Assembly: GCA_016858145.1 (NCBI GenBank)
Contig: JAEHOE010000230.1
Location: forward strand, 35,398 to 99,397
Direction: 5' to 3'
Length of the DNA: 64,000 bases
From: Edaphochlamys debaryana
Taxonomy: Eukaryota; Chlorophyta; Chlorophyceae; Chlamydomonadales
A model generated the notes under the pieces. That model saw only the letters and a program-made list of their open reading frames with translations. It was not told where the DNA came from and made no database searches. Numbering within the stretch: position 1 is the first letter of the stretch; each line of letters opens with the position of its first letter. Shown here piece by piece: positions 1,178 to 46,500 of the stretch. Made by a program: the position numbers and the translations under genes.

Positions 1178-1214
1178 CCCTATGGCACTACTTGAGTCCG
1201 TAATGGGGGGGTAG
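1178..1214 (+). repeat. Left terminal inverted repeat (37 bp) of the DNA transposon
   Basis: It begins CCCTATGGCACTACTTGAG and continues to a run of seven G and TAG. It is a perfect reverse complement of 17021-17057, and one further base (A at 1215, T at 17020) also pairs. CACTA occurs at positions 9-13 of the repeat rather than at the tip. Confidence 0.95.
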
Positions 1215-1221
1215 AGTCCCT

Positions 1222-1372
1222 TGTCCTCCGTAACCCCCCCCCCCCTTTACGGCCACCCCACCGTAGCCCATCGTAGCCCCCCCCCCCTTTACGGCCACCC
1301 CACCGTAGCCCATCGTAGCCCCCCCCCCCTTTACGGCCACCCCACCGTTGCCCACCATAGCCCTTCCCTCCG
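1222..1372. repeat. Left sub-terminal repeats, about 49 bp x 3
   Basis: Three near-identical units each contain a long C run, CTTTACGGCCACCCCACC and GTAGCCCATCGTAG. The CCCCGTAG/TTACGG words recur, inverted, in the right sub-terminal block (16590-16990) and in a cluster at 5600-5765. By analogy with En/Spm, where the TNPA protein binds sub-terminal repeats, these are candidate transposase-complex binding sites. That role is inference. Confidence 0.75.
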
Positions 1373-1854
1373 TAGCCCCTCTTCGCGCCTTTCGCGCCTT
1401 TCGCGACGTCCTCGACAGACGCCTTCATGTGCTCGTACACTTCTGGAACTCGCCTGGGCGCCTTCTTATAGCTCAAGTTGCCGCTGCCAGGTTGTTATCA
1501 CCACACATCACGTCTTCGACGCGTATCCCCAACGCTGCACCCTGCTCCTGCCCCTCGCGCGTCGCTCGCGTCCAAGTAATTCAAGTAAGCGCGGGCTTTG
1601 TTTGCTCTTGAGTGCTCTCCGTTGTTGCCTGGCTGCACTGGCTTGCAGCCATCGCTGCCTGCTCTGGCTCGCTGTAGAGGAGCACGCCCGTTCCACAGCC
1701 TCCCTAGCCCCTAGCCCGCGGTTGCTCCTGCTCACGGACCCCCCCGTTATCTCTGCCTCCCTGAGCTTTTAAGCCAGCATCGGAAGGCCTTATCCCCCAC
1801 AGCCCCCAACCCCGCGGCCGCTTTCCCACTCTCCTTGCCTTCTCCCCCAGAGAA

Positions 1855-2738
1855 ATGGCACACGAGGTGGACTCCCACGTTATTGCCGCAGGCACGGATA
1901 CTCACTGGATGATCCGCCCCGGCACTCCCCTGGGAGGCAACCACGGCCTCAAGCTGCGACAGCCTGCCCGCTGCTCCATTGGTTCTGTCCTCCGCCGGAG
2001 CGGCCCCATCACGCCCCTATTCAGGATTCAGGACGTTTACGCCGCCTCCCTGATTCCCAAGAACGCCCAGGGCGTTCACCCGGTCAAGGTCAGTCGCCTA
2101 TCTTTGTTCAGCGCTGGCCAGCCATACGTTGCGTCTGGCCCTCATGGGGTCTCCAAAAGGGCCAGCAAAGGCAGTAGAGACCTTCCGATCCTACAGATCT
2201 CCCCCCCCCCTCCCTTACCATCCGCTCACAGGCCTGGATTCCCGCCGGCAACGTCACCATCGGCACCCTGTACGCAGGCGGCCACGTCGACCCGGACTGC
2301 TTCTTCTGCGAGATCAGCTACGAGGACCTGGTGTCCCGGCTGCGCCTCGAGCTGCCCTTTGTCGAGCTGTCTGACCACGACCTCGAGCGCTGCACCCCCA
2401 TTCTCTGCCCCCACACCAGGGCCTGGGGCCTGCTAAGCGAGAACCGCAGTCACGCGTTCCTGCACCCCGAACCCCGCTCGGTCCCCTGGCCCACCACCAG
2501 CACCGTGGAGGGGCTCATCTGGGTAGAGCGCGTGTCCCTGACCTACGCTCCCATCTTCACCAACGCCCTCACCGACCCCGTCGTCCTGGACCGCCTGCCC
2601 TCGCACCTGGGCATCTGGTACCCCGAGGGAGGGGTGGACGCCCCCCCCATGGAGGAGGGCGCTGCCGTGCAGGGCGCCGTGCTGCAGGTTGACCCCGCCG
2701 ATGGCGAGGCCGAGGCTGAGGCCGAGGCCATGGCATAG
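1855..2738 (+). CDS. Two-exon gene of unknown function in the DNA transposon
   Basis: Exon 1 is 1855-2088 and exon 2 is 2232-2738. The intron has GT-AG ends, a C/T-rich 3' tract and phase 0, and the product is 246 residues. The start is the first ATG of a frame entered from a C-rich region (MAHEVDSH...). An upstream non-coding exon cannot be excluded. The middle contains a Cys-x2-Cys pair (DCFFCEISYED) and a well-mixed, globular-looking composition. The C-terminus is strongly acidic (DPADGEAEAEAEAMA). No signal peptide or membrane segment is evident and I do not recognise the family. It is the left-most gene of the element and converges on the JmjC gene. Its intact frame across the splice argues that it is a real gene rather than a shadow. 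Confidence 0.65.
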
Positions 2739-3371
2739 TAGCCATATGCATAATAGCAGCTGAAGCTTGTCCTGAGCGCAAGAGGTACTTGCACTTGGAG
2801 GATGGGATGGATGGATGGGCCAAGAGGGCCCCGGGCGCCTTTTGGTTGTTGGCATTTGGCGCAGGAACTTTTCGGAGCCAAGGCATGTTTTGTGGTGGCA
2901 TGGCATTATGGACGTCAATGAGTGGCTTGGGAAGCGTTGAGGGCCGGCAAGATCTGGTCTGGGGCGGGCTGGAGCGGCTTGGGCGGGGCGCAGGATTGCA
3001 GGATGTTGGCAAGACACGGACGTATGGATGCAGCACTAATGATGTTAAAGCCTGTGTCCTGTCGGTGCCCCTATACATGTGTCCACTCTCCTGCTCCTGC
3101 TCACCACAGCCCATCACAGCCCTTCATTGTTTATGTGCCCTGCCTTACACTCCAGGCATAGCGTGTTCAGCTTAATGCACTACCACGGGCCCTTAAGCGT
3201 AACCATTCCTTGTCATGCCACGCACGTTAGTTCTTCCGCTGCTCCCATCATCCTCATTTCCCACACCAAAGCCACGCTAGACATCCGAATGTTAACAGGC
3301 GTCCAACCACCATATGTTGGCCGGAAGAAGCGTGCCTAATGCACCGAAAGCCCCTGAGGCCCCCCACGTAA
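2739..3371. other. Intergenic stretch without a recognisable gene
   Basis: It lies between the 3' ends of two convergent genes. Short overlapping open frames exist on both strands, but none has coherent composition or splice-compatible neighbours. It probably holds the 3' untranslated regions of both genes. Confidence 0.5.
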
Positions 3372-5525
3372 TCACAGGACCCTCGCCAACGCCACTACAT
3401 TTTTGGTCACCAGTTTTTCGAGGTACGTATAGTCGAATCCATAGTATGAAATGAGGCCCTGAGTGGCCAGGAAACGAGGGAGCCAGAAGAGGGGCCCTGC
3501 CATCCTTAGGTCGGCCACCTCCCACGCCACCTTGACATTGCTGTTGACGTTGGTGACCTGGTGGGCCCACCCCGGGGGCACTTCCACCAGGTCAGCGTGC
3601 TTCTGGTCCACCACCCGCACATGCTCCTCCCCGAACTCCTCCACACATGCGTCAATGCCCTCCTGTGTGAGGTGAGGCTGCATCACCCAGGTCGGAGTAG
3701 GCGCCCAGGGTGTGCGGTTGCGGCGCTCCCACTTCACCTTCTTAGCCCCTCCCTTCTTCCCCTTCAGCCCCACCACCCACTCGTTGAATTTTGAGATTAT
3801 TGCAGGGCTGATGAACACCCAGCGTGCAAGCACCGCACCAGGAGGCACGTGCCATGCTGCAAACGCGACATTCTTTGCCCCCGCACGATCTATGTGGAAA
3901 GCCGAGAAGGTCACTCCTCCCCGCCCAACAATTATGAGCACGATCATCGACCAAGGCGACACGTCCCTCCCCGGGGCGCCCCCGCCAGACTCCACCTCGT
4001 CCCACAGCGTCTTGATCACCCAGTACAGGATGGACTTCTCTCGCTTCTGCGGCGGGCAGTCGTAGTTGAAGCTGCGGTAGATCTTGCAATTCGAGTCCTC
4101 CGCCAGGCAGCTCCCCACTGCCGCGGCTCCTCCCTCCTCAACCAGCGCACTGCAAGAGGGACACGGGGGGGTGGGGGTGGGGTGGGGGGCGCGGGAGCAG
4201 ACGGAGAAGGTCGTTGGAGGGAAGGGGGCGGGGAGGACACCCAGGTTGGTAGTACTACCGAGCACAAGAGCGGGCAAAGCATGGGTGTGGTCAGCAAGGT
4301 TGGGCCAGAGGCTCCTGAACTTCCCAATCCAACCTTCCAACACACCTGAACTCTGGGTCCTTCTCCTCCTTCACAAGCCTCGCCAACGCACAGTTGCCCC
4401 ACAGCATCATCTCCGCCTCCATCATCTCTGGCGTCCACCGTGGCGCTCCACGCTCAGGTAGCAGGCATTGTAGCTCCTCGACAGCGCCCAGCTCAGACAG
4501 GACAGGGTAGACGCTACAGGACAGGAACCGCAAGCACAGAAGCAGCTTGGCCTCTTCAGCCTAGCATGCCCTCACTGTTCCCTCCCACCCCCAATCCTGC
4601 GCTCTACTCTTTCCCCTGACCACAGTGTCCCACCCACCTTGGTGGCGTATTAGCCAAGTTGGTCGGCTTGAAGGGGATGTTACCGATGTGGTAGGCGTTG
4701 AGCACCTTCCTGTACTCAGGGGACGGGCAGTGTAGGCACGAGTCAGGCACGTACCCATTCCTTCCCCTTCGTCCCCTCTTCATTCCCCTCTCACCCGCCC
4801 CGCCCCCCCCCCCCTCCCCGCGTTACGCACTCGAGCGCATCCAACTCTTCCTTCTCGGCGATGCAGAAGCGCTGCAGGCAGAAGCCCTCCTCCTCCGCTC
4901 TCTGGGCTGCCACAACGGGAGCGCACGCCCAGCACCACCACTCCGAGCCCTCCTCCTGATACCCAATCGCCTCCTTGCTGGGCTGTGCGAACACTACAAG
5001 CGCACACTTGGCCGCGCACAAAGCGCACGTCCACTCGCCACCCTCGCTCTGATTGTTCTCTCGCCTGATGATGCTCTCCCTACGCAGCTCGTCTACTGAG
5101 TGCCTGCCCTTGCCCTGTCCCAGCATAGTCCCCACAGCAGCGACCAGTGCGTATGACTCCTCCCGGTGGCGCGCCTCGTCCTCCCGGCCTGGCGGCAGCT
5201 TGATGTGCCGGACGATTTTCGCTGCGTGAGACCCGTAGCGGGCCTCCCACTGCTCGATGCAGCAATCGCTGGCAAGGACAGGGTCCAGGTCGGCGTTGGG
5301 AGCGTCGTCGTCAAGAAACGACGCCAGCATCCGCTTGCTGGTGGGCTTCCGGCACAGCTTCTCCGCTACATGTTGGCCTATGTGGTCTTTGCAGAACAGC
5401 TTAACACTCGACCTGATGTTGTTGGGGTCCTGTAGGCAGAGGTCCGGGCAAGCGCACATTGTGTACGCGGCCCGCCGCCCGCACTTCTGTGCGCCGCACT
5501 GCACGAAGCAGTAGTCCTTTGACAT
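3372..5525 (-). CDS. KDM3-like JmjC-domain dioxygenase carried by the DNA transposon
   Basis: Four exons join in phase: 5525-4831, 4709-4638, 4513-4346 and 4149-3372 (donors gtgcgt, gtgggt, gtgtgt), giving 570 residues. The N-terminus is Cys-rich (residues 6-50: QCGAQKCGRR, CACPDLCLQD, LFCKDH), and a second Cys cluster (CALCAAKC...WWCWAC) lies near residues 165-205. Both look zinc-binding. The C-terminal half is a JmjC domain. HID at 397-399 followed by A-x-NV gives the HxD iron ligands, and H508 in VPPGWAHQV is the distal ligand, followed by NVNSNVKVAWE. This arrangement matches the KDM3/JMJD1 group of histone H3K9 demethylases (H-x-D...A-x-NV; PAG-x-PHQV-x-N). The enzyme class (Fe(II)/2-oxoglutarate oxygenase) is well supported; the substrate is inferred. 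All three metal ligands and all splice frames are intact. It is convergent with the gene at 1855 and divergent from the HNH-like gene. Confidence 0.85.
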
Positions 5526-5949
5526 GTTGCTATGATATTGGGTAGCCTATGTGCAGTAGGGTGCTTTAGAGAGGCGACCAGTCCCTGTGCCGTACCGGCG
5601 ACCCCATTACGGAGGGTGCAAGGCTTCCTTGCACCCTCCGTAATGGGGGGTGCAGCGCAGCCTTGCACCCCCCGTAGACCTCCCGCGCCCCGTTACCCCC
5701 CGTTACGGAGGGTGCAAGGCACCCTTGTGCCCCCCGTAGCCTCCCCGCACCCCGTTACCCCCCCCCCCACCTTTCCTCCTGCCTTGTCCGCCCTGGGGCG
5801 CCGTACACAAAGTCCATGCAAGCCCGCGAAATTTAAGTTGCCGCACTTCAGCGTGAGTCCCACAAGCAACTGCTCGTGCATGTGTTGAAGCAGCGCCAGA
5901 CACACACGCCCCCCATCGCCCCCAATACGCCAAGCCCTCCGTGCCCGCT
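5526..5949. promoter_or_regulatory. Divergent intergenic region with GC palindromes
   Basis: The JmjC gene reads left from 5525 and the HNH-like gene reads right from 5950, so this 424-bp stretch must hold both promoters. No TATA element was recognised. Its centre is the repeat cluster described at 5600-5765. Confidence 0.45.
5600..5765. repeat. Internal cluster of CCCCGTAG / TTACGGAGGGTGCAAGG repeats
   Basis: ATTACGGAGGGTGCAAGG is followed after five bases by its inverted copy TTGCACCCTCCGTAATGG. Further direct and inverted copies of the GTGCAAGG and CCCCCCGTAG words follow. The words are those of the element's two sub-terminal blocks, so this may be an internal binding-site cluster or a relic of a nested related end. 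Confidence 0.7.
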
Positions 5950-6217
5950 ATGTCGTCGACTCCTCGCTCTTCAGCTTTCGGCAACCTGGTAACGGAGCTG
6001 CAGACCGTCCCCACAGATGAGACTAAGTGAGTGCAGGGTGTGCAGTGAATTCAGGGTGTATTTTGAGCTGGGAAGGCCGCTAGCCTCCACGGCACGCTAT
6101 TACAACGTCTTCCACATCGACGGCAACCGCTTCAACAACAACGCCAGCAACCTCATCGTGGCCACCAAGCAGCAGGCCAGGTGGCTAAAGGCGAAGCGGT
6201 ACCGCTTCCTGGTGTAA
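5950..6217 (+). CDS. Small gene with an HNH-endonuclease-like C-terminus (possibly a remnant)
   Basis: The C-terminal frame ends at 6217 and contains YYNVFHIDGNRFNNNASNLI, which fits the second half of an HNH_3-type homing-endonuclease domain (HxIDGNxxNN...NL). A plausible first exon starts at ATG 5950 (MSSTPRSSAFGNLVTEL...) and ends at 6026 with a GTGAGTG donor. Acceptors at 6054 or 6075 restore the frame, but the implied introns (28 or 49 bp) are very short. Alternatively the frame opens at 6017. No first-His/Asn half of the domain is seen, so the protein is either very small or a truncated endonuclease fragment. It stands upstream of the minisatellite and divergent from the JmjC gene. Confidence 0.45.
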
Positions 6218-6221
6218 AGAG

Positions 6222-6640
6222 CAGTAACCGTATGCATAGCACCATATGGTCCGCTGGCGCAAGGGTGTCAGCATGCAGGGTGGTGGACAGGATGGCAGTA
6301 ACTGTGTGTGTTTGGTCTGGCTGCGGGCTGGTGATGCCAAGCAGCAACGAGGTCTAGTTAGAGGGATGCAAGTGCGCTGGCTGCGGTATGGCAGAGATTT
6401 GAGCGACGGCCCTTGACGGTTGGGTGCACCGTTTCCTTATGTGGGGCACTGGAACTGTATGCATAGAACCAGATGGTCTGCTGGCACAAGGGTGTCAGCA
6501 TGCAGGGTGGCGGACAGGACGGCTGCGGGCTGGTGATGCCCTTTTGCTTGAGAAGTGGATTGAGCGGCTTGACAGAGATTCGAGCAGAACTGTAACGGGC
6601 TCAACATTAGTGCTGCCCCCTTCGATCGTTCCCATCTGCC
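6222..6640. repeat. Two diverged direct repeats upstream of the minisatellite
   Basis: Segments at about 6222-6345 and 6448-6545 share CTGTATGCATAG-like starts, GGTGTCAGCATGCAGGGTGG and GCGGGCTGGTGATGCC, and are about 226 bp apart. No gene is recognised. It grades into the 94-bp array. Confidence 0.6.
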
Positions 6641-7957
6641 CCCGCGCAAAGGGGCTGACCATCTAGGACAGTCGGCAGGACAGGGCTTTGCCAGCGGGCT
6701 GGGAAGGGGTACCAGTCATCCAAGCGGCGGGGCTCTCGCGCAAAGGGGCTGACCATCTAGGACAGTCGGCAGGACAGGGCTTTGCCAGCGGGCTGGGAAG
6801 GGGTACCAGTCATCCGAGCGGCGGGGCTCTCTCGCGCAAAGGGGCTGACCATCTAGGACAGTCGGCAGGACAGGGCTTTGCCAGCGGGCTGGGAAGGGGT
6901 ACCAGTCATCCAAGCGGCGGGGCTCTCGCGCAAAGGGGCTGACCATCTAGGACAGTCGGCAGGACAGGGCTTTGCCAGCGGGCTGGGAAGGGGTACCAGT
7001 CATCCGAGCAGCGGGGCTCTCGCGCAAAGGGGCTGACCATCTAGGACAGTCGGCAGGACAGGGCTTTGCCAGCGGGCTGGGAAGGGGTACCAGTCATCCA
7101 AGTGGCGGGGCTCTCGCGCAAAGGGGCTGACCATCTAGGACAGTCGGCAGGACAGGGCTTTGCCAGCGGGCTGGGAAGGGGTACCAGTCATCCGAGCGGC
7201 GGGGCTCTCGCGCAAAGGGGCTGACCATCTAGGACAGTCGGCAGGACAGGGCTTTGCCAGCGGGCTGGGAAGGGGTACCAGTCATCCGAGCGGCGGGGCT
7301 CTCGCGCAAAGGGGCTGACCATCTAGGACAGTCGGCAGGACAGGGCTTTGCCAGCGGGCTGGGAAGGGGAACCAGTCATCCGAGCGGCGGGGCTCTCGCG
7401 CAAAGGGGCTGACCATCTAGGACAGTCGGCAGGACAGGGCTTTGCTAGCGGGCTGGGAAGGGGTACCAGTCATCCAAGCGGCGGGGCTCTCGCGCAAAGG
7501 GGCTGACCATCTAGGACAGTCGGCAGGACAGGGCTTTGCCAGCGGGCTGGGAAGGGGTACCAGTCATCCGAGCGGCGGGGCTCTCGCGCAAAGGGGCTGA
7601 CCATCTAGGACAGTCGGCAGGACAGGGCTTTGCCAGCGGGCTGGGAAGGGGTACCAGTCATCCAAGCGGCGGGGCTCTCGCGCAAAGGGGCTGACCATCT
7701 AGGACAGTCGGCAGGACAGGGCTTTGCCAGCGGGCTGGGAAGGGGTACCAGTCATCCAAGCGGCGGGGCCCTCGCGCAAAGGGGCTGACCATCTAGGACA
7801 GTCGGCAGGACAGGGCTTTGCCAGCGGGCTGGGAAGGGGTACCAGTCATCCGAGCGGCGGGGCTCTCGCGCAAAGGGGCTGACCATCTAGGACAGTCGGC
7901 AGGACCGGGCTTTGCCAGCGGGCTGGGAAGGGGTACCAGTCATCCGAGCGGCGTTCA
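6640..7957. repeat. 94-bp minisatellite, 14 units
   Basis: ACCAGTCATCC recurs at 6711, 6805, 6901, 6995, 7089, 7183, 7277, 7371, 7465, 7559, 7653, 7747, 7841 and 7935. The period is 94 bp, with one unit of 96 bp caused by an extra TC. Each unit contains CGCGCAAAGGGGCTGACC, ATCTAGGACAGTCGGCAGG and GGTACCAGTCATCC. The units are nearly identical, and CCAAGCGG and CCGAGCGG variants alternate along part of the array. Stop codons in the unit rule out a long repeat protein. It lies 3' of both flanking genes. Confidence 0.97.
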
Positions 7958-8215
7958 TCTCGTTTGCACTCTTGCAAGGCCGTAAAGACCATCCAGTCAA
8001 CGTCCCCGCCAATCTGACTGCATCTGCCACCACCGCCGCCACCGCACCGCAGGACCGCCACCGCACCGGCACGCTACACCTCCAACCACCAGGGCCACCA
8101 CCGCAGCCACCGCAGCCGCCAACGTCCCAACCACCGCACCGGCACGCTACATCTACTACCACCAAGGCCACCACCGCAGCCACCGCAGCCACCGCCACTA
8201 CCATCGTCGCCACCG
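7958..8215. repeat. CCACCG-rich low-complexity tract
   Basis: From about 8020 the sequence is dominated by CCACCGCAGCC / CACCGGCACGCTAC words, partly as a 90-bp direct repeat (CACCGCACCGGCACGCTACA occurs twice). It overlaps the last codons of the minus-strand transposase and is otherwise probably its 3' untranslated region. Confidence 0.7.
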
Positions 8216-11200
8216 CAGGTGGAGGCTCTTGAAGTTGCGGAGAACGTGCCAGTGCCTTGCGAGCACGACTTGTCGCCGCTTTGCAGCGGCTCGCTTCTCG
8301 TTGTGTGGGTGCGGCTGTGCAAAGCACACCCAGGGCACAATTGCTCTCGGCAAGAACCATGGCCCGTCTGCGTGTGATTTCGCCTCCATGGGGATCACTG
8401 GGCAGTGGAGCAGGGGGTCAGGCTTTGACTCGGCTTTGTACCATTTGGCCATCACCAGTGCCTCTGCATACCCGTCACGTCCCACGTGCTTGATTACGTT
8501 TTCCACCTTGCCGAACCAAAGCTCACCCGACGTGTCAGGGCGGCAGAGAAACCAGGACCCAGCGGACAGCTTCACACGCCCCACCCTCACTCCCTTCAGG
8601 ACTTTGACCGTCGCATCCCCACCCACCGAACTGTCCATGTCCCACCGTTCATATGCCGCATCGAGCTGCGACATTTGCTTCTTCGACAGGGTCATCTCCG
8701 GCAGCGCCCGTCGCTCCTCATCGTCCCCGATGGGGACAACAGTCGGTGTACGGCAGAAGTAGGCTCTCTCGTCGTACATGTCGACCAGGTCGTCGCAGTT
8801 AGCGTCCTCCTCTTCAGAGGCGGCCACACGCTCGACATCGCGCAGCCCCCCCTCGTCCTCGACCTCGCCCTCGCTCCCACCCTCATTGCCCTCGCCCTCG
8901 CTCCCACCCTCATCACTGTTGCCCTCGCTCCCGCCCTCAGCGTAGCCCTCGCTCTCACCCCTGGCCTCAGCCTCACCCTCCCTGTCACCATCGACCTCGG
9001 CCTCGGGATCGGCCTCACTGCCCATGCCCTCCCCTCCGCCACCTTCCGCGTCGGCCTGCGTGGCCTCGTACTCCAGCCGCAGTGCAAGGCAGACCTGCCT
9101 GTCGAGGGCCGAGTAGAACATGGAGGCCTCCATGTAGCGCTTGCTGTGTGCCCACCGGCCCAGCACTCCCCATAAGTGCTCAGCCTTGAACATGGCAGTG
9201 CAGTAAAGGGGCCCTGTATAAGGAGATATGGGCGTAGGAAAAGGGATGGGGAAGAGCACAACGATGGCCCCCGAGCCCCCTAGGCCTCCACCCAAACCCC
9301 AAGGCCCCCGAGCAACTGACCCCAAAACCCAAGGCCCCCCCCCCCCCCCCCCCCAGGCCCACCGAAGTTGGCTATGCCGTCCACCAGGTGGATGCAGTTG
9401 TGCAGCTTGATGTCAAGCTGCACTGCACCCAGGTAGGTCTCCACGAGGCACAATGCGGTTGCGACCCGTGCCTTAAGGGCTGGAAGCCTGTCTCGGCACG
9501 GAATCTTGTCCCACAGGTCACACGACACCTGGAGAAGGGCGATGAGCGTTTCCTCCACTTCAGGACTGAGCCCCGCGCTCGCGACGGCATATGACCCGTA
9601 TGGCCCCGCAGCAGGAAGAATGTATGCGACTTGGCCTTCTTTCCAGCGGAGGTCAGGCGGGCAAGACGCTTTGCCCCTGGATCGATCTTGGCAATCTCCA
9701 TCATTGCGTCCCGGAACTTGGCAATCACGTCAGTGGGGAAAAGCTGTTGGGATGGGGAAGACGGTGCTCAGACCCAGCCCCCAGCCCCCAGCCCCAGCCC
9801 CCAGCCCCAGCCCCCAGCCCCCAGCCCCCCAGCCCCCAGCCCCCATGCCCCCAGCCGCCCCCAGCCCCAGCCCCCATCCGCCCGAGCCCCAGCCCGGCCC
9901 CGCCCCCAGGCCCCCAGCCCCCCAGCCCCCCAGCCCCAAGCCCCAGCCCAGCCCCAGCCCCCAGCCCCCAAGCCCCCCAGCCCCCAGCCCCCAAGCCCCA
10001 GCCCCCAGGCCCCCAGCCCCCATCCCCCCCAGCCCCCAGCCCCAAGCCCCCGCCCCCAGCCCCAGCCCCCAGCCCCAGGCGCCCCCAAGCCCCAGCCCCC
10101 AGCCCCCAGCGTGCCCCAGCCCCCAAGCCCCCAGCGCCCAGCCCCCAGCCCCCATCCCACCCCAGCCCCCAGCCCCCAGCCCCCATCCCCCAGCCCCCAG
10201 CCCCCAGCCCCAGCCCCAGCCCCCCAGCCCCCATCCCCCAGCCCCCAGTCCCCCTCCCCAGCCCCCAGCCCCCAGCCCCCATCCCCCAGCTCCCCAGCCC
10301 CCAGCCCCCAGCCCCAGGCCCCCATCCCCCATCCCCAGCCCCCAGCCCCCAGCCCCCAGCCCCAGCCCCCAGCCCCCAGCCCCCAGCCCCCAGCCCCCAG
10401 CCCCCAGCCCCCAGCCCCCAGCCCCCAGCCCCCAGCCCCTTCCTTACGTGTGATGGTCAGGTTGTTTGCATTGTCGTATGCAGTAATGGCGGGGCTCCGC
10501 TCACGCAGGTTCTGGAGAGTCAGTACGATGGTATCCTTAATCACGCCGGCGAGGGTGTGCATGGCGTCGTAGTTCCACGACAGTACCGGGTCAAAGGATG
10601 GTGAGTTGTAAACAGGCGAGGACACCTGGGGCTGATCACGCGAACGGGGGGTTGCTACACGGCTCCAGGTAGCGTTGAGGGGAGGGAGGTTGGGCTCACT
10701 TGCTGCTGGTGGGCCGTTCATGCCCCGGCGGATCTCCTCTGCCCCCCGTTGCCGGGGCCGTTTGAAGGGGTTAGTGTTCCCGGCCAGCCTCCATGATTGA
10801 GCCACAACTGGCGCTGCTGCGTCCGCCGCTCCATCACCACCCGCATCCTCATCTTCTTCAACCCAATTGTCCTCGTTGTCAGTGCCGTCTGCTGGCCGCT
10901 CTTGTTGACGCTCTTGTTGACGGCCCCAGCCCTGGCCCTCGGGATCACGGCTGGTGAAGTTGGCCTTGAGAGCGCCAAAGAGAGGGTGGCTGGTAGGAAG
11001 GAAGCGAAAGTGGTCGGTATAGACCGTCTTGCCGCCACACTTGAAGCCTGGCTGCCAGCACTTGAGGCATGCCCACAGGGCAGGAGAGAACTTGACGCCC
11101 ACGTGCTTCTGTAGCCCACGGTAGTCTGATACCATGCCCAGGAGGGTGGCATAGCACCTGGGGAGGGGGGAGGGATTGAATGCGTGGCGTTAGTAGCAGT

Positions 11201-13375
11201 AGTAGCAGTAACAGCGGAGGGTAGCAGTAGTAGTAGCAGTCACTGGTGCCTGGATCCTCACCTGAACGTCTCGTTGCCACGTGAGGCGTCCTGCAGCAGG
11301 ACACCCTCCTCCTCCAGGAACCGAAGCTCGTCTAAGATGAGGGCGAGGACGTGGTTAGGGTCCATTGGAGGCGCACACTTGTCTCCCGGGTACTTGATGT
11401 TGCCGCCAATGATGGCGAGCACGGATGAGTAACCGAGCTCAAATCGACTCTCCTGAGGGGCATTGACGGCCACCAGGTACCATGGAGTGCTTGACCGTTG
11501 CGATTCGTCGGAGGGGACCTTTATAAGGCGGGGCAAGGGCAAGGACACCCAGTCATATAAGGAATGCAAGGCACACAAGCATCCCAGGTGCCCGAAGTGC
11601 CCCAAGCAACCCACAAGCCCCTGAGCCCCACCAGCTCCACCAGCCCCACGCACCAGCCCCTCCTGCCCCACACCCCCCGCCGGATTCAGCACTTACAATG
11701 AACGGGTCCGTGATGAGGACGAAGATGACGTTGCGCCTTTCAGTCTTAAACTTAGGCTGCTTGGCGAAGAGGTCGGCGATGGCTGCCCCATCGCCGATGT
11801 CAAACATGCAGTCCGAGTGGGGCTGTGTCCGGTGTTGCGCCTCCAGGCGTTCCTTCCATGCCCCAAACTGAGAGGCGGTCACCTTGTTGCTGTAGATGCT
11901 TTGGAGCCACTGCCTGATGGAGTTGTAGAGCATATAGCGTGATGGGTCCATGGGCTTGTTGCAGCGCTTGGACTTGGTGCCTGGCGAGAGGGCCGGACAG
12001 GCCTTCGCCTTGGCGTGCTCTCCGCGATACACGAAGCCACACTCGCACATGGGGTATCGCCAGATGACCGGCCACTTCACTCCAGCAATGTCCTCCAGCA
12101 TGGTGAGTACCTGCAGTGGACCGCAACGTGTAGGACCGCAAGGGAACCGCAACCCTCCACCCGCCAAACCCACCCGCCAACCACCTGACAAACCCACTGA
12201 GCCCCTTGCTCCCCAGCCTACGCCAACACACCTGCTTGAACGTGGTGGGCAGGTACTTGGCAGCATGCTTCTGCACCTCACTCGCAAAGGGACCCGCAAA
12301 GGATTCCCGGATGCTCTTGAGAAAGCGCGCCACTGAGGTCTCGGTCGCGCCAGGGCTGCACTCCTTCTGCAGGATGGCCTGGTATAGGACACGGGTGACT
12401 AGGCGTGTAACATCCGCATCTCCAGTTGGGAGCTCGAGGTACTGAAGGCGCTGCGCACGGCGGCGAGGCTTTCCGCCATCACAGCCATTGCCAGGGCACC
12501 GGGCGAACAAGCCAGATGAAGCTGCGCAAAATGGGTGGGATAGGGAAGGACGGATACCGGGATCAGCGGCATGCACATTCCTCGCCCCCCTGAAAAGAGG
12601 CTTCTCTGTCCCCCGCCCCCCGCTCTTGCTCCCTGGCCCAATTGAAAAGCCTAGACCCCCCGTCCCAACCGGTGAAGTTCTCGACGCCGCCAATGCCGCC
12701 CCCGCCATGGCTTGGGATGACGGGGTCAACGTCGCCAACACCCCCACTGCGTGCTGCAGCTGCAGCTGCTAGTGCGTCAGCAGCAGGCGGTTGAGTGACC
12801 GGAGGGATCGCTGCTCCAACCTCCCCCGGCTCAGGCTCTGCTTCGTCTATGCCCCACTCCGCTAGCTCCGTTTCGTCAAGTGCAGGCCCGGCGGGGGGAA
12901 TGGGGTGGGGTCCCGGGGGGGCTGCACCAGCAGGAGGGGGGGCGGCTGGCGTGACGTCTTGCGAGTGCGGGCCTGGGTGTAGGCCGCCACCCTGATCTTG
13001 GTCGTGTTGGGAAGGGCCACCAGGATCTGTGCCCCCTGCGGAGTCATTGGAGAGACGCCGAAGGAGAGATGGGCTGAGGCTGGGAATGGGAGAGGGCCTG
13101 AGTAGCAGTGGAGTTGCTGCCTGATGCTGTACGCCGCGGCCACTGGTGCTTGGCGAAGACAATGCTCCGTCGCCTGGGGCTATGGCCTCGTGCCGGTCCA
13201 GAAAGTAGGCCTCAGAAGGTTCCAGTAGAGGAATGTCCTGTACCGCTCGGTGCCGAGGAACAGGCGAGCCCAGGGGCCCAATACCATCGGCATTTCCATT
13301 GCCAGCCACGCTCTCGACAGCGCCGATGCCACAACCACTGTCATCGTGGGCTTTGCGCTTACGTTGTCGTCCCAT
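8198..13375 (-). CDS. TNP2-like transposase (CACTA/EnSpm type), seven exons, one apparent 1-bp frameshift
   Basis: Exons 13375-12670, 12521-12232, 12110-11697, 11518-11262, 11157-10448, 9766-9363 and 9213-8198 splice in phase to about 1265 residues. An in-frame ATG at 13483 is an alternative start; 13375 is preferred because MGRQRKRKA gives a nuclear-type basic start. TNP2 (Transposase_21) hallmarks appear in order: a Cys-rich patch (MCECGFVYR...CP...RC, about 353-382), FDIGDG with D436, [12 protein letters not shown] with D467, [12 protein letters not shown]...DAS, CLKC at 586-589, [11 protein letters not shown] at 605-615, DAMH near 755, [13 protein letters not shown], then [14 protein letters not shown] and [16 protein letters not shown]. 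An acidic Glu/Gly/Ser tract (about 984-1065) and a BAH-like C-terminus (about 1130-1228) follow. After KSHTFFLL (about 9610) the family-like continuation [13 protein letters not shown] lies in another frame, so one base appears missing. Intron 5 is a 0.68-kb G-rich repeat. The gene is divergent from the gene at 13720. Confidence 0.82.
9767..10447. repeat. AGCCCCC/GGGGGCT simple-repeat intron of the transposase gene
   Basis: About 670 bp of the plus strand is almost entirely C-runs separated by AG (CCCCCAGCCCC...). On the transcribed minus strand it is GGGGGCT repeats, so the pre-mRNA would carry dense G-quadruplex-forming tracts. It is bounded by a donor-like GTAAGG (10447) and a possible acceptor TGAG (9767), and removal keeps the protein in frame. 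Long proline-rich open frames on both strands here are consequences of the repeat. Confidence 0.85.
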
Positions 13376-13719
13376 GAAAGACGCAGACGCGATTAGCAGG
13401 GCAGTGAGAGTAAGTGCAAGGAGGATGTGGCGTGCAGGTTGGTGGGCAGGGTAAGGAGAGTGTCGCGCGTACGCGCGCGACATGGCGCTAGTGAAGCACT
13501 GGGGAAAGTATCTACATTACAAACGGCTTGGGGTCTGTGCGTACCTTGGCTGGGCGGCGCATGCCACGGAGATGCCCCCCATTGCCATGGTCGATTGATC
13601 CTGTCTCCTGCGCCACAAACCACCGCAGTCTGCTATCCACTATCCACTGTCTTCCTGTCCACTATCTCCCTGTCCGTTACCGCGCGAATGCCATACATCT
13701 AACATAAGCGTTGGCAGAC
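13376..13719. promoter_or_regulatory. Bidirectional promoter region between transposase and partner gene
   Basis: The transposase reads left from 13375 (or 13483) and the partner gene reads right from 13720, leaving 236-344 bp for both promoters. The right part holds CTATCCACTGTC / CCACTATCTCCCTGTCC repeats. No convincing TATA box is seen. Confidence 0.55.
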
Positions 13720-16553
13720 ATGGCCGGTATAGGAGAAGTCGAGGCTCAGCCTTCAACTACAGATGACGTGGCAGAGGCGGAGGAGTGTGTGGAGAGGGAG
13801 GAGCAGCATCACAGCGGAATAGAGGGAGAAGGTCCGCAGCTGCCAGGTGAGCTCTGTGATTCGAGCGGCGGGGCTCTGGTGCAGGCTTGTGATGCCGACC
13901 CGCTGATGTATATGTAGTTCTCTGGGACGTTAATAACTTCTAGGGATAGGACTGGGCAGCGGGGAGCCCTGGAAGGCCCGCCCAGACGCTTGACCGGGAA
14001 GCAAGCACTTGCCATGACACCGCTGACCGTCTGGCTGTCCCGCCGGTGTTGCAGGTGATGTTGAAGGGGAGGAGGAGGATCCATACGCTGAGTACAGCGA
14101 GGAGCTTCGCGAGGAGTTGCGCGGCATCGGGTATCGCGGGCTTCCGGAGGCGCTGCGCAGCAAGCTCCAGCAGACTAAGGGCGCCGTGCAGCGCTTGGTG
14201 CTGACTGTGGAGACCAGTCCCATATGGGACAGCTGCGACGACCTCTGGAAGTCGTCGATTTCCCTCGCTGCCAATGTGCCTGGCTTGCAGAGCATGATGG
14301 TGCAGGCAATGGGAGGTGACGTGCTCGGGCACTACATTGCGTCAGCAATCGTCGCAGTGTTGGGGGAGACAAGCCTGACGCCGGAGTCGGGCGGCAAGAC
14401 CAAGAGCTCGAGGTGTGTCGGGGATGGGCGTAAGTGTCTGGGGACGGGCGCCTGGGGATGGGCATCTGTGGATGGGCGCAAGGGGACAGGGCATCTGGGG
14501 ACGGGCGTCTGGGGACGGGTGCAAGGGGACTGTGCATCTGGGGCGGGCGTCAGGGCCTGGTCTCGGCATGAATGTGTCAGGGGCTGGTCTCTGCATAAAT
14601 GCGTACGCGTGAGCCAGGAGTCGTAATTACAACACCCCCGTGTGCCCATTCCCTCGACCAAAGCAGGCCGAGCGCCAAGGCCAAGAGCAGCGAGAAGGGC
14701 GAGGTAAAGCTCAGCGAGGCGCAGGAAACCCTGCGCAAGGAGTTGGGCAAGCCATTCGAGGAGGTCTTCAACAAGCTGGGGCTCCAGATAAACCACGCGA
14801 GCCTGGTGCGGGTGTACGGCGTGGCGCTCGTCATGACCCGAATGTGAGCCTGCCGGCTGGGCTTGGCTGGGCTTGGCTGGGCTGGCTGGGCTGGCGAATT
14901 CCCGAAACCGGCGAAGTCAACCAGCACACCCCGCTTGCCCATGCAATCCACAACTCGTGTTTCTCAAGCCAGTGGCTTATACCCTCCCGTCCATGCAGGT
15001 TCGTCCGCTGCGGGCTGCAGTGGGCGGATGTATACAAGGGGCGCAGCGCTGATATTGGCCAGGTAGTCGTCAACGGCATGGACATGCACGTTCTGTATGT
15101 CAGCTACGTCCGGTCGATCCTCAAGGCGTGGATCAACTACACGGGCGATAAGAGCGCCACAAACCACGTGGCCAACCTGACCTTAAGCCAGGTCAGGGCG
15201 CTGGGCGACCTCCTCAACGACAAGATCAGCAACGTGATGCAGAACATCCAAGGGAGCAGACGTAGGTGGGGGTGGTGGTGGTGGGGGATAGATGCAGGGC
15301 TGTTTTAAGTTGGGGGGGGGACGTGAAGCTTCCAGGTTTTGGCTTCTTAAGCTGATGGAGAGCCCTGCCTTGTCCTAATGTTGTTGTGCCGGTGTGCTGC
15401 CCTCTATTCCTCGCAGTGTTCCCCCTCATCAAGAAGATCCTGGAGAAGAGGGCGAAGAAGGCAGCGAGGGCCGCTGAGGACGCCTCTGCTGCTTCCGCTG
15501 TCGACGCGGCTGCAGCCGGCCCCAGCAGGCCGCTGCCCAAGCGGCGGAAGACGAACGCGGGGAGCGGGGGGGCGGCTGAGCAGCCCGCAGCTGCGGCGGC
15601 GGCTTGTGCCGTGACTGACAGCGAGGTGGAGGCGGCGGTGGCGGTGGCCACGACCTTCAAGCCACCCGCGCAGTTCACGCACGCCTTCGACGAACGGGTG
15701 TACCCCTGGGGATACAGTCGGAAGCTACCCGGCGGTCGCGGCCCGCCATGCAGCGTGGAGGCGGCGCGGGCTTACTTCTTCATGAACGAGGCCGCTGCAA
15801 TCTTCAAGGAGTTCGACATTGCCGGTGGCAACAAGTGCACCAGCATGGGTGGGTTGGTTACAACACGTGCTACCAAATTGACTTGCTGTTTGCTTGCTTG
15901 CCCAGCTTGTTGCATGATGTGCCCAGCTTACTAACTTCTAACTTGCCCCTGCCTACAGCGAGCATCAACGAGTTCATGCTCATCGTGTACAGCCCCAGCG
16001 TGAAGTTCTGCGTGGAGCAGCTGGTGGGCATGTAAGCCAGGGCCCTCGGGGATAGGCTTGGTTAGTGCTGCTGCCGGGGAGGGGCCTTGGTGGTGAGGGA
16101 ACTTGATTGGAGAGGTCTTGGAGGCAGGGGAGGGTATTGAAGGGCGGCTTGGCTTGACATGGCATGGCTTCGCCCCACTAAGACGACTCCTTCTCCCGAA
16201 ACCACAACAGCATCGAGGTCGCGCCGAGGGAGGAGGGAGGAGCCGGTGGAGACGGAGGAGCCGGTGGAGCCGGTGGAGACGGAGGAGCCGGTGGAGACAG
16301 AGGAGGCGGTGGAGCGGGTGCGGCAGGTGTGGCCGCGGAAGCCACGGGGGCGCCACAGGGCACGGCACAGCCCGAGCAGCCGGGAACCGCGGAACCGCGG
16401 AACGTGCAGAAGCCTCCTGCCCAGGCGGCCGTCGTGGCGGGAGGCAGGGCAGACAGCACGAAGGCCAACCCGCCCTACAGGCCGCCAAAAGCCATAGGCC
16501 CTGGCGGCCGGGGCAATGGCCGCGGCGACAGACCCGGCAGGGGTGACCGCTAG
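13720..16553 (+). CDS. Seven-exon nuclear-type protein divergent from the transposase; unknown family
   Basis: Exons 13720-13846, 14055-14412, 14667-14843, 14999-15261, 15417-15848, 15959-16031 and 16211-16553 join in phase through standard donors and acceptors to give 590 residues. The protein starts acidic, continues with helical, non-repetitive sequence (LREELRGIGYRGLPEALRSK; FVRCGLQWADVYKGRSADI), then has a basic cluster with a bipartite-like nuclear signal (IKKILEKRAKKAARA; PLPKRRKTNAG) and a Gly-rich tail ending GRGNGRGDRPGRGDR. Reading through the sixth donor would stop at once (LVGM), giving a shorter isoform without the tail. No family was recognised. CACTA elements commonly encode a second, DNA-binding protein besides TNP2, and the position, nuclear signals and RG tail suggest this role. 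That is inference. Confidence 0.7.
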
Positions 16554-17020
16554 CAGGAGCAGGCAGCGGGGTTGGTGGAGGTGGCATTGGGGGCTGATGG
16601 GGGGGTACGTGACGGACGGGGGTCCATGACGGATGCTATGAAGCCTGCGGGGGGGTACGTGACAGACGCGGGTCCTTGACGGTTGCTATGAAGCCTACGG
16701 GGGGGTGCGTAACGGATGGGGGTTCTTGACGGATGCTATGAAGCCTACGGGGGGTAGGTGACGGACGCGGGTCCATTACGGATGGTCTGAAGCCTATGGG
16801 GGGGGGGGGTAACGGACGCGGGTCCCTTACGGATGGTGTGCAGCTACGGGGGGGTAGGTAATGGACTGGTCCTTTACGGACGGTATGAAGCCTACGGGGG
16901 GGTTGGTAATGGACTCGGATCCGTTACGGATGGTACACCCCCTACGGTTCCGTTATGGACTCAACTCCGTAGCCACATCAGAGACCGTTACGGGGGGGGT
17001 CCGTAATGTGTGTGTGTGAT
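16554..17020. repeat. Right sub-terminal repeats, about 50-57 bp x 7-8
   Basis: From about 16590, diverged units contain GAAGCCTACGGGGGGGT, (A/T)GACGGACGCGGGTCC and TTACGGATG(C/G)T. The GTAACGG/CCTACGGGGG words are inverted relatives of the left sub-terminal block. The last part carries a short GTGTGTGTGT run next to the terminal repeat. No gene is present. Confidence 0.85.
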
Positions 17021-17057
17021 CTACCCCCCCATTACGGACTCAAGTAGTGCCATAGGG
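17021..17057 (-). repeat. Right terminal inverted repeat (37 bp) of the DNA transposon
   Basis: It ends CTCAAGTAGTGCCATAGGG and is a perfect reverse complement of 1178-1214. Confidence 0.95.
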
Positions 17058-35069: not shown

Positions 35070-35261
35070 ATGGTGAAACACGCTCGGGATCAGGCGTTAT
35101 CAGGCGAGCAGGCAGCCAGCAGCGCGGGGGAGGCAGCTGGGGTTGCACAGCAGGCCGACGAGGGTGCGGGCACGGAGGGGGATGAGGCAGAGGCCGTGGA
35201 GTCTGGGGGTGAGGGGGGCGATTTGGTTATGAGGGGCAACCTCGCGTGCATTGCCATTTAG
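35070..35261 (+). pseudogene. Tandem-array gene, truncated copy 10
   Basis: The first 48 codons match the other copies up to ...AVESGGE. At 35215 the sequence passes into the 2300-bp repeat unit, and the frame runs on for 15 unrelated codons to a TAG at 35259-35261. The basic region, helical middle and C-terminus are lost, so this is a broken copy that marks the right end of the array. Confidence 0.85.
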
Positions 35262-35616
35262 ATTTGGAGTACTGTGACGGCAGATGCAGGGCGGGGCTGT
35301 AGGGGTAGCTGTATTGCACACCGTCATGTTGGGCGGATGGAGTAGTGTTGAGAGGGTGGAGTTGGATACGTTGGATGCCGTCAGTGCAAAGGCCCGGCCC
35401 CTGCGCCAGGTGCATGGTGGGCTGGCGCTGTGGGTGCGGGAGGGCAGGGGGCATCCCTTGAGGGCGCCTGCGTACATGGACCGATTGCACGTCGCGTGTT
35501 CTAGCTTGTTGCTGCATATGAATTCCCGTGGGCTGACCTTTAAGCATATGTGTGCATGTATCCAGCTAGCAGCTAAGTGTGTTGGGCGACGTACGTGATT
35601 CTGCAATACTCTGCTG

Positions 35617-35991
35617 ATGCTCATGCTTGGCGCCCCAGATCCGGACGGTACGCCTGGTTGGGTGGTGGGGGTCGGTCAACACGAGCGCGCGAACGTGCCA
35701 TGGGTGAGGCCGCGGGCGGCGTGGGGACTGCCCGGCCTGCGCCAGGTGCGGCAGGAGGTGCGATGCGAATCGTGCGAGTCTTGCCCCTGGCACCTGAGTC
35801 CTGAACAGTCAGTGATGCTGAGCACAACAAGTACGCTGTGTAGCACAACACGTACTACTGCGAACTTACTCTTGCCGCGCACAGGCTGCGCGGCACCTAC
35901 CTACTCTTCAGCCTCAAGACCAGCGTGCTCCGCAGCAGCGCGATTTTCTACAGCTCACTATTCCTGTTCACTTGACACGGCCGGTCTCTGA
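35617..35991 (+). CDS. Possible exon or small ORF in the 2300-bp unit
   Basis: The 124-residue open frame starts MLMLGAPDPDGTPGWVVGVG and contains a Cys-rich knot (VRCESCESCPWHLSPEQS) that could bind zinc. The later part is Ser/Thr-rich and less convincing. In the second unit the retrotransposon is inserted exactly at this Cys-rich segment (38060/63505). No family is recognised. It may be an exon of the gene that continues at 36531, or spurious. Confidence 0.3.
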   Translation: MLMLGAPDPDGTPGWVVGVGQHERANVPWVRPRAAWGLPGLRQVRQEVRCESCESCPWHLSPEQSVMLSTTSTLCSTTRTTANLLLPRTGCAAPTYSSASRPACSAAARFSTAHYSCSLDTAGL

Positions 35992-37517: not shown

Positions 37518-38060
37518 GCGATTTGGTTATGAGGGGCAACCTCGCGTGCATTGCCATTTAGATTTGGAGTACTGTGACGGCAGATGCAGGGCGGGGCTGT
37601 AGGGGTAGCTGTATTGCACACCGTCATGTTGGGCGGATGGAGTAGTGTTGAGAGGGTGGAGTTGGATACGTTGGATGCCGTCAGTGCAAAGGCCCGGCCC
37701 CTGCGCCAGGTGCATGGTGGGCTGGCGCTGTGGGTGCGGGAGGGCAGGGGGCATCCCTTGAGGGCGCCTGCGTACATGGACCGATTGCACGTCGCGTGTT
37801 CTAGCTTGTTGCTGCATATGAATTCCCGTGGGCTGACCTTTAAGCATATGTGTGCATGTATCCAGCTAGCAGCTAAGTGTGTTGGGCGACGTACGTGATT
37901 CTGCAATACTCTGCTGATGCTCATGCTTGGCGCCCCAGATCCGGACGGTACGCCTGGTTGGGTGGTGGGGGTCGGTCAACACGAGCGCGCGAACGTGCCA
38001 TGGGTGAGGCCGCGGGCGGCGTGGGGACTGCCCGGCCTGCGCCAGGTGCGGCAGGAGGTG
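37518..38060 (+). repeat. 2300-bp tandem unit, copy 2, left part
   Basis: It matches 35218-35760. It is interrupted by the LTR retrotransposon after GCAGGAGGTG and resumes at 63505. Confidence 0.9.
38058..38060. other. Possible short target duplication GTG of the retrotransposon (left; right at 63505-63507)
   Basis: The empty site in unit 1 reads GGCAGGAGGTGCGATGCG. The left flank here ends GGCAGGAGGTG and the right flank starts GTGCGATGCG, so only GTG is duplicated. This is shorter than the 4-6 bp usual for LTR elements. Confidence 0.5.
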
Positions 38061-40671: not shown

Positions 40672-41011
40672 TTTGCAAGTCACACGCGTGTTGTGAGCCT
40701 CCGACTGCAGCGGAGCGCCCCCTTTTCGTCTACTAATTTAGCGGCAACAGAGGCCGCCAGTACTACAACTCCTAAAACCCGACCGATAAAGCCTTCACCC
40801 TCAATCTACGTCCTCCCGCCTTACCTCCTCCGCGTATTCGTCCCCACTCCACCTCCGCGTATTCCCCCACTCCTCCTCCGCGCTTTACCTCTTTCCTGCA
40901 GGTGTCAACACTTTCGTCTAGCCTCCGCGCATTCGTCACCACTCCTCCTCCGCGCATCCCCCACACCACCTCCGCGCAGACAGTCTCTTACGCAGGAGAA
41001 GCTCAAGAATC
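40672..41011. other. Retrotransposon leader with CCTCCGCG repeats
   Basis: This is the untranslated leader before gag. From 40826 to 40977 the word CCTCCGCG recurs six times (for example 40826, 40852, 40874, 40921), often followed by ATTC or CATCCCCC. It may be a packaging or translation element. No ORF is present. Confidence 0.6.
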
Positions 41012-43540: not shown

Positions 43541-46500
43541 GTGATCGAGCCTCACCTCTCGGCCTTGGACGTGACCCCCGAGCCAGTGGGGCCTCGCCCC
43601 ACGCCTTCATCCCCCGTAGTGGTGGAAGAGATCCGGCCTGAGGCCCCCAGCTCTCCAGTGCTTCCACCGGCTCCCGACCCGGAGCCCCCGCTTGCGGCAC
43701 AGGGAATCACCCCTGCCTTGAGCGCGGACTGCTCCCGGGTGGACGAGGAGGTGGTGCTAGCCCCTCAGTGGGCGCGCAAGGATGCTTCCTCGTCGCCCTT
43801 GCGGCCCTGGAAGTGCGGGTCCCCTCGCAACGCCCCGGGTTCCCCCAAGCCCTCGTCGCCTCCGCCGCCAACAGAGGAGCCTTCACTTCCCATTGCCGAG
43901 CCCCCTCCAGTCGTGCCTCCCTCACCTCCGGATGCACCACCCGCTGAACCAAGCACCGGCACGCCGTGCGAGCCAGGGCTCTCGGAGGACTCTGCACCCA
44001 AGGACTCGGAGGCTTCGCCTTCTGCAAGTCAACCACCTCCCGAGCAAGCTCCTCTTTCCCCTTTGGCCGAGCTCCCACTGTTCATACTGCAACCGCCTCT
44101 GGACGGGCTCGTGGCCAACCTTCAAGGTATCGACACGCATGACGAGCCAGCGCCTTTTGTGGCCCCGCCTCCCCCGACCACGGTCTTGGCCTCGCCTTTC
44201 GCTCGCCATCAATCACTTCCCAGGCCAAGGTCAGAAGCAGAGGAGATGAGGGCAGAAGCCGAGAGGATGACGACCCTTTTGGACAATGTAATGGCTGCGC
44301 GAAAACTCCTGGGGCGGAAGGAGTCGGGGAGGGAGAAGACGTGCCCTCTGCCCCGGCCAAGCAACGTTCCTACCGGTATGGTCTGTCGCCCCGCCGCTCG
44401 AACAGGCCCGTCCTCTCATCTACCTTCCTCCCAAGCCCGGCGCCCGGCTACGGCGCTGCGTCCGCTCGCGCGAGCCGAGCCGCCCTCCGGCTCGCGACGA
44501 GCTATGGTCGGCCAGGTCCAGGCGCAGAGGTCAAGCCTTTTCTCTTGGATCAGAGCCAACATTGTTCCTGCTCTCGACCCGACGCAATTCCTCTCTACGG
44601 AGGAGCGCTACGCAGTGGCAGCCTCGCTTGATACGGCGCTCACGTACGATGCGACTGCCAGGCTTCAACGCAACATGATGAGCCAACCAGCGGCGCTATT
44701 ACTAGAGCTTTATGAGCAGCTCAAGCATAGCAAAGCCCAGCGGTCGCGGGCAGTACATCGCTCATGGCAAACCTACGGCTACAAGCTCATGACCTACGAC
44801 GAATGGACTCGCGCCTTGAAAAAGGCAGGTTTCGTCTTTGGCTCAGAATTCACTTGGTCAGGCGACGAGCGACGCCAATATGCACGACCGCCGCCCCTCA
44901 GGGCAAACCAAGTCGACCGTCTATTAGACATCGTGGATCGCTTGGGTAGTGCATATGACGGGCCAGATGTTATGATGATTACCGACCGGGTGGTACCCGA
45001 CGCGGGCGCAACTGTCGCAACCGACTCCAGCGCCCGCGGCGTGCCCACATGCCCCCGAAGCTGGATACGTCAACACCTGATGGTCAAGTTGGGACCACAC
45101 CTACGCTGGACCCCGGATCAGGAGTGTGCCATTTATCAGCACCTCCACGCAGCGGCAAAAAGCGACAGTGCCGCTCGCCGTTTCTCCAACACCGCACGTT
45201 CGAAGCTGCACGAAGCTTGGCTAGCCCTGCGCGAGAGCAAGGCTCTAAAGACCTCAGCCCGAGATTCAGTGCGCAAGGCTTGGAGCCAGGCGGGAAAGAC
45301 TCACTTCCCCGAGTTCGGGGAGTGGGTCTCTGCCGTCCTTTCCGCCGGGTGCGGCCTAGGGCCTCACTGTCCTTGGGACCCCAGCGATGCTGAAGCCTGC
45401 TGGCCCCAATGGCAGCTCAAGCCCCAGCAGATGTTGGAGCTCGCCGCCCTCATGTATGGATCTTTGGAGGAGCTTGAGGAAGGCGAGATCTGGGAGTCGC
45501 CAAGCGTATCTATGATGGGTCAAGCGGGGCCTTCGACAGCCCCAAGCGGCGAGCTTCCCGCAGGTCCGCCTTATGACACCACGGCAGACGACGAGTTTCT
45601 GCCGTACGAGATCTTGCCCCTGACCCCCAAGGAGCAGGATTGGCTTGAGCGCTATATCAACAAGGCGCTTAACAACGGCAAGCCCTGGTCGTCAGGCATG
45701 GACTGCTACAACATTACCAGCAGTCTTAGCAACGCCGCCCGCCACGAAAGCAAGGCCCGCCAACACGAGAATACTGCGCGCGAACACCTTCAATTCGCCC
45801 TCCAGTCTCTCGCTATGGCCGCTTCTCGTCGCGAGGCCGGCCGCTGTTGGGTTGAGAGCGCCTACTCCCTAGGCGGCAACAAGTACTACCCGGAGTGGAA
45901 GGATTGGCTCAATGCGGTGCGGGCGTCGGGATGCGGTCTGGGGCCTCATTGCCCTTGGGACCCTAAGGATGCGGAACGCTGCGAACCTCGCCGGCCCCAC
46001 AAGAGTGAGAGTCTAGATCTGTTGATCAACTTTCTGAAGCTTGAGAAGCGACGTGGTTCCCCTCCGCCTTCTCCTGCCCATGACACCGCGCCTACGACTC
46101 CTCACCCGGGCTACGTGGACCCCAGCAAACGTCCTAAGCGCCCTAGCGAGCGTTTTTACGCCGAGCATGAGCCTCCACCTGCTGGACGCCCTGAGGGTAC
46201 CTTCTGGGGTGGACTGCAGCCCGACACCACCTCCCTCGAAGCTCAACAGTGGCTCGTCGACATCCTTGCAGTCCGTCTGGATCCAAGTGGCAAACTGCGC
46301 CACGACGAGTGGAAACGGGTGGAGACAACACTAAACGCGGCATGCGAGTTTGCTCACGTGGCCACTCGCGTGCGCAGAGTGGCCGAGCACATGTTGGTGG
46401 ACGTGTACAACCAGCTCTCGCTTGCACGAGATTTGCGAGCCGAGGGCAAGCGCTTGATGGACCAAGCGTGGCTTCACGGCGGCAACAAGATATGCACGTC

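Follow-up and report, generated by a model that had tools for sequence, protein, structure and literature searches.

The analysis of a 64,000-nucleotide stretch of the Edaphochlamys debaryana genome (contig JAEHOE010000230.1, positions 35,398 to 99,397; hereafter the window) revealed a DNA transposon, filed here in the EnSpm/CACTA superfamily, that encloses an intact four-exon gene for a JmjC-domain protein. We propose, as a reading whose chances fall just short of even, that this transposon-encoded, KDM3-like protein erases H3K9 methylation, that it is expressed from a promoter bearing the motif of the element ends, and that it keeps the element open. The features on which the argument rests are as follows.

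1178-17057, unstranded: EnSpm/CACTA-superfamily DNA transposon, 15,880 bp, inside a 1919-bp tandem array (terminal inverted repeats, CGT duplication, empty site)
1178-1215, plus strand: left terminal inverted repeat, 38 of 38 positions identical to the right one
17020-17057, minus strand: right terminal inverted repeat, 38 of 38 positions identical to the left one
3372-5525, minus strand: JmjC gene, four exons, 570 residues (joined exons 5525-4831, 4709-4638, 4513-4346 and 4149-3372)
4831-5525, minus strand: JmjC exon 1, Cys/His-rich N-terminal region with possible zinc binding (by eye), no Pfam match
3372-4149, minus strand: JmjC exon 4, JmjC domain by family-profile match at residues 382-526 (profile search)
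5602-5763, unstranded: repeats and palindromes ahead of the JmjC start codon, including three copies (5604, 5638 and 5700) of CCGTAAYGG, a motif common to both element ends
8198-13375, minus strand: transposase gene (TNP2-like, PF02992), limits approximate

The JmjC gene and its transposon

All three introns of the JmjC gene are of the GT-AG type and in phase 2. Their lengths (121, 124, and 196 nt) each leave a remainder of 1 when divided by 3, and the frame is therefore open only once spliced, when it runs uninterrupted over 570 residues. The GC content at the first, second, and third codon positions is 0.61, 0.45, and 0.77, respectively, and that of the window is 63.2%. Open frames as long as exon 4 (258 codons) arose in 8 of 2,000 simulated sequences with the composition of the element; exon length alone is thus moderate evidence, and the weight is carried by the protein match described below. 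An earlier reading of the letters without database searches (the sequence-only reading) had described an intact four-exon gene inside a DNA transposon, and both statements hold, since the spliced frame is uninterrupted and lies between the perfect terminal inverted repeats of an insertion for which the empty site is at hand. The Cys-rich N-terminal clusters that it had pointed out are visible in the protein sequence, but they matched no Pfam family at an E value of ≤1.

The 3-bp target-site duplication of the element (CGT) was read against the empty site in the array units, a sequence present nine times in the window in sister repeats. Both flanks of the element are 99.8% identical to array sequence that has no interruption. 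Flank match, empty site, and duplication together place the entire 15.9 kb between the ends of one insertion, which looks recent because its terminal inverted repeats are identical and its flanks nearly so. An insertion of this age also suits the explanation that the JmjC gene is a passenger, captured by chance by this copy or lineage, still intact as the insertion is young, and without a role in the element. Gene capture by transposons is established, and a single copy of the element was seen; we nevertheless hold this explanation to be unlikely, given the evidence on the upstream motif presented below.

The element ends read CCCTATGGCACTAC (CCCTATGGCACTACTTGAG), where CACTAC starts nine bases in, and the termini do not begin with CACTA or CAC. 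We therefore filed the element as a member of the EnSpm/CACTA superfamily with unusual termini and not as a canonical CACTA element, a placement that follows from the transposase and the 3-bp duplication. The earlier label of a CACTA element was thus correct as to the superfamily and incorrect as to the termini. The first five transposase exons, when joined, matched Transposase_21 (tnp2, PF02992) with an E value of 1.3e-12 (47.9 bits), and the C-terminal third gave a weak match to DUF4218 that was below the cut-off (6.6e-4). The D, D, CxxC, HxxxH, and E motifs are ordered between positions 11723 and 9167, with residues assigned by eye according to a motif rule taken from the portions of PMC12730594 drawn on in this study. 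The frame of the transposase changes at 9595-9746 (near 9595-9642), where no splice solution joins 9746-9612 to 9624-9382. Possible causes are a missed intron, a frameshift, and an error of assembly, as the DNA is rich in homopolymers; this copy may carry a transposase that is broken near 9595-9642.

The JmjC domain and its affinity to KDM3

The metal ligands of the JmjC protein correspond to H397-x-D399 (HID, residues 397-399) and H508 (WAHQ, residues 506-509), with N405 as a further conserved position; exon 4 contains SAFHIDRAGAKNVAFA at 3905-3858 and PPGWAHQVTN at 3578-3549. When PF02373 was compared with this protein alone, the match had an E value of 2e-4 and 22.2 bits, below the curated cut-off of 24, and its span of only residues 489-523, with the HID half outside, qualifies the domain call. 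The remainder of the evidence comes from six metagenomic relatives, for which the window sequence was itself the starting point of the search: exon 4 alone retrieved P0001, and a profile of exon 4 and P0001 retrieved P0002 to P0006, among the matches listed (8,000 scored candidates). P0003 is present on 5 contigs, the longest of which has 11,957 bases. All six exceed the PF02373 cut-off (26.2 to 39.7 bits). A profile built from them without the window protein recovered the latter with 94.5 bits over residues 382-526, HID and H508 included, whereas the top score among 2,000 shuffled copies of exon 4 was 9.1 bits. Among the stop-to-stop frames of at least 40 residues in the window, the exon-4 frame alone passed an E value of 1e-3 with this profile. 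The H, D, and H ligands and the AxN motif are invariant in the seven family members (the window protein and its six relatives), and the residue three before the HxD His, a candidate for the 2-oxoglutarate-binding Thr, is Thr in the six relatives and Ser in the window protein.

The assignment of a full JmjC domain is thus supported at the sequence level via the relatives. It bears out the sequence-only reading, which had named HID and H508 and had put forward PF02373 as a check; here the window protein itself fell short, but the relatives passed and led back to it. Structure prediction, its second check, points the same way: the predicted fold of the domain is that of JmjC proteins (double-stranded beta-helix). 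The single-sequence structure model was poor (mean predicted local distance difference test score, 42.1) and played no part in the Foldseek comparison below. Two further candidates, P0007 and P0008, both named glucose-6-phosphate isomerase (E values, 8.9 and 9.9), were not retained as relatives.

As a single query, the 570-residue protein found nothing at an E value of ≤1 among 7,999 scored candidates, and phmmer against the Protein Data Bank (PDB) returned only a thioredoxin-domain match (0.25) and no JmjC match. The latter result argues against a passenger gene recently captured from a standard KDM3 gene. However, the PDB holds few algal proteins, so that a divergent host gene, if newly captured, could have gone the same way, and the six relatives, which are not known to lie in transposons, are compatible with a passenger as well. 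No relatives were found in viral_contigs, genome_contigs, or plasmids; these are viral and prokaryotic collections, and absence from them says little.

Profile searches against the PDB ranked KDM3B first (7.2e-10 when the profile included the window row and 1.5e-8 when it did not) and JMJD1C second (3.9e-6 and 3.3e-5, respectively). JMJD6 gave about 3e-4 in either case, so KDM3B was ahead of it by four to six orders of magnitude. The alignment with KDM3B covers HxD, AxN, His, and KVA together, whereas the aligned positions of JMJD6 are only 27-29. Affinities to KDM7 (homologue at 0.27) and JMJD6 (2.9e-4) were accordingly ranked lower. In the comparison of structures, KDM3B (6.9e-6) and JMJD1C (1.0e-5) came first in Foldseek, though KDM4 and others lay within a factor of about 3. 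The comparisons of sequence support KDM3 as the nearest solved relative, in agreement with the affinity proposed earlier. They also bear on the alternative that the protein is a JmjC hydroxylase with another target (transposase, another protein, or RNA) or a catalytically weak regulator that serves the element otherwise. This we judge improbable, in view of the distance by which KDM3B leads JMJD6.

The window protein shares with the KDM3/JHDM2 group (KDM3B, JMJD1C, and plant IBM1) the HxD...AxN...H pattern and the KVA after the third ligand. It differs from this group in being short (570 residues) and transposon encoded, in having PPGWxHQVTN aligned with PAGAPHQVHN of KDM3B, and in that no recognised zinc domain was found in it. 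The substrates of KDM3 enzymes are H3K9me1 and H3K9me2 (PMC9029850). The portions of the same source drawn on here report a survey of 21 species, of which the two that are green algae, Volvox carteri and Ostreococcus lucimarinus, yielded no KDM3/JHDM2 member.

A shared motif and a proposed anti-silencing role

The 9-bp motif CCGTAAYGG occurs eight times in the window, in all cases inside the element: once at the left end (1198), three times upstream of the JmjC gene (5604, 5638, and 5700), and four times at the right end (16773, 16921, 16985, and 17029). The three upstream copies stand 79 to 183 bp before the JmjC start codon (5525). In 100 shuffles the motif occurred 0.63 times on average and at most 4 times, a comparison that overstates significance because the motif was picked after the three regions had been seen. 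The repetition of the end motif upstream of the JmjC gene suggests that gene and element belong together, and this recurrence speaks against a mere passenger; judged by sequence, the gene looks like an integral part of the element. In the Spm element, the subterminal repeats are recognised by TnpA. The striking clustering of the motif in the present element suggests that the same element protein may bind both the ends and the JmjC promoter.

In the mechanism that we propose, a KDM3-like Fe(II)/2-oxoglutarate demethylase would be encoded beside the transposase in the EnSpm/CACTA-superfamily element and would be expressed from the promoter region with the end motif. Targeted to the element by its Cys-rich N terminus or by an element-encoded DNA-binding protein, it would remove H3K9 mono- or dimethylation at the termini and promoters of the element, which would thereby stay open for transcription and transposition. 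We infer the catalytic activity, its H3K9 substrate, the targeting to the element, and the advantage to it; the data suggest that the element comes with a countermeasure of its own to silencing. In Chlamydomonas, H3K9me1 marks repressed chromatin and is treated as a repressive mark, and mutants with lower H3K9me1 at transgenes showed no transposon mobilisation (PMC7722844). The passages of this source that were used do not state whether H3K9me1 at the transposons changed, and the result therefore neither supports nor excludes the eraser model.

One observation weighs against a simple link between gene and element and concerns, in addition to the JmjC gene, a small neighbouring frame.

5993-6217, plus strand: small open reading frame, HNH_3 endonuclease match (1.2e-6), divergent from the JmjC gene and inside the element

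Kolobok elements with a His-Me finger nuclease offer a loose parallel to this frame (PMC9587614, in part). Both genes lie between the arms of an inverted pair of 15 nt with one mismatch (3030-3044 and 6602-6616), and CACTAATG...CATTAGTG is contained in these arms. The two genes could thus belong to another mobile unit that is nested in the EnSpm element or fused with it, in which case the JmjC gene would still be transposon borne; the motif cluster at 5602-5763 could then represent the inner terminus of a related element. A CACTA+3 pair shared across these flanks appeared in 39 of 1,000 shuffles, but this test was chosen after the pair had been seen. The length of the pair is ordinary, as inverted pairs reached 15 nt in 44 of 100 shuffles, and the flanking triplets, CAG and CTG, are no duplication. 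Within 1178-8100, no longer or better pair surrounds the gene, except one of 28 nt with 71% identity. A nested or fused unit is therefore a possible but weakly supported arrangement, to which we give little credence.

The proposal of an element-encoded eraser can be extended to a KDM3-like JmjC lineage that lives on mobile elements, with EnSpm-type transposons maintaining an H3K9 eraser driven from the end motif. We regard this extension as rather doubtful. If true, it would constitute a histone-level counterpart of the fungal transposons that carry TET/JBP enzymes, and it would be notable in a green alga in view of the lack of KDM3/JHDM2 in the two green algae surveyed (PMC9029850, in the portions mentioned above).

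VANC of the VANDAL (MuDR) elements of Arabidopsis is not known to be a JmjC enzyme. It is an element-encoded protein that relieves the silencing of its own element, a role that might be ascribed to the window protein by analogy. The Vandal system was reportedly the subject of a study by Fu et al. in 2013 (as cited in PMC8059525). The cargo known from transposons comprises DNA-base dioxygenases (TET/JBP), histone methyltransferases (SET), and sequence-specific anti-silencing factors. The portions of PMC12730594 drawn on here state that plant Vandal elements self-regulate silencing, and they describe TET/JBP dioxygenases in many lineages of fungal DNA transposons, namely, EnSpm, Plavaka, Kyakuja, Zisupton, Dileera, hAT, Harbinger, Helitron, and others. 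An anti-silencing role is proposed for these enzymes, whose function, according to that source, has no experimental validation. These transposons resemble the window element in their 2-oxoglutarate/Fe(II) dioxygenase cargo and, for some EnSpm elements, in 3-bp duplications; they differ from it in that their enzyme acts on DNA bases, whereas that of the window is a JmjC, KDM3-like enzyme of the histone demethylase type. The same portions report SET-domain histone methyltransferase genes in HarbingerS and MuDR elements of Phytophthora (an oomycete). Here, too, a histone-methylation enzyme is transposon cargo, but it is a writer and not an eraser, in other superfamilies and other hosts (PMC12730594).

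The sequence-only reading had known of no CACTA element with such cargo. This stands for JmjC, as no JmjC gene was present as transposon cargo among the literature matches listed, with subscription papers and Repbase reports lying outside these and an earlier description being possible; the term JmjC is also absent from the main text of PMC12730594. It does not stand for dioxygenase cargo in general, given the fungal EnSpm elements with TET/JBP (PMC12730594). If the proposal is true, a transposon-borne H3K9 eraser would act at the level of histones, against the very mark that silences, and the arms race between host and transposon would be directly testable with one enzyme. It could also provide an element-derived tool for studying the reactivation of silenced loci.

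Further features of the element and the window

Two additional genes were delimited inside the element.

1855-2738, plus strand: two-exon gene, 246 residues (splice by eye), no Pfam family
13720-16550, plus strand: multi-exon gene, candidate second element protein (limits and splice by eye, approximate), no Pfam family in the 433-residue part scanned

The element also contains a 94-bp minisatellite at 6643-7953 (13.9 copies, 98% matches) and a long CCCAGCC-type repeat at 9773-10439, apparently within a transposase intron. The 1919-bp tandem array that the transposon interrupts continues from 17058 to about 35215, with seven full units that are 99.84 to 99.90% identical to the first. The array copy at 3-878 holds a frame of 291 residues that matched no Pfam family at an E value of ≤0.001. 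At the end of the array, a near-identical direct duplication of about 540 bp was noted by eye (35217-35760 and 37518-38060).

Farther along the window, a Gypsy-like long terminal repeat retrotransposon occupies 40922-55824 on the plus strand, with gag, reverse transcriptase, RNase H, and an integrase zinc domain. Between the RNase H and integrase zinc domains, its frame at 51714-54578 includes a PHD finger (3.5e-8, residues 494-538), possibly a chromatin reader within a retrotransposon.
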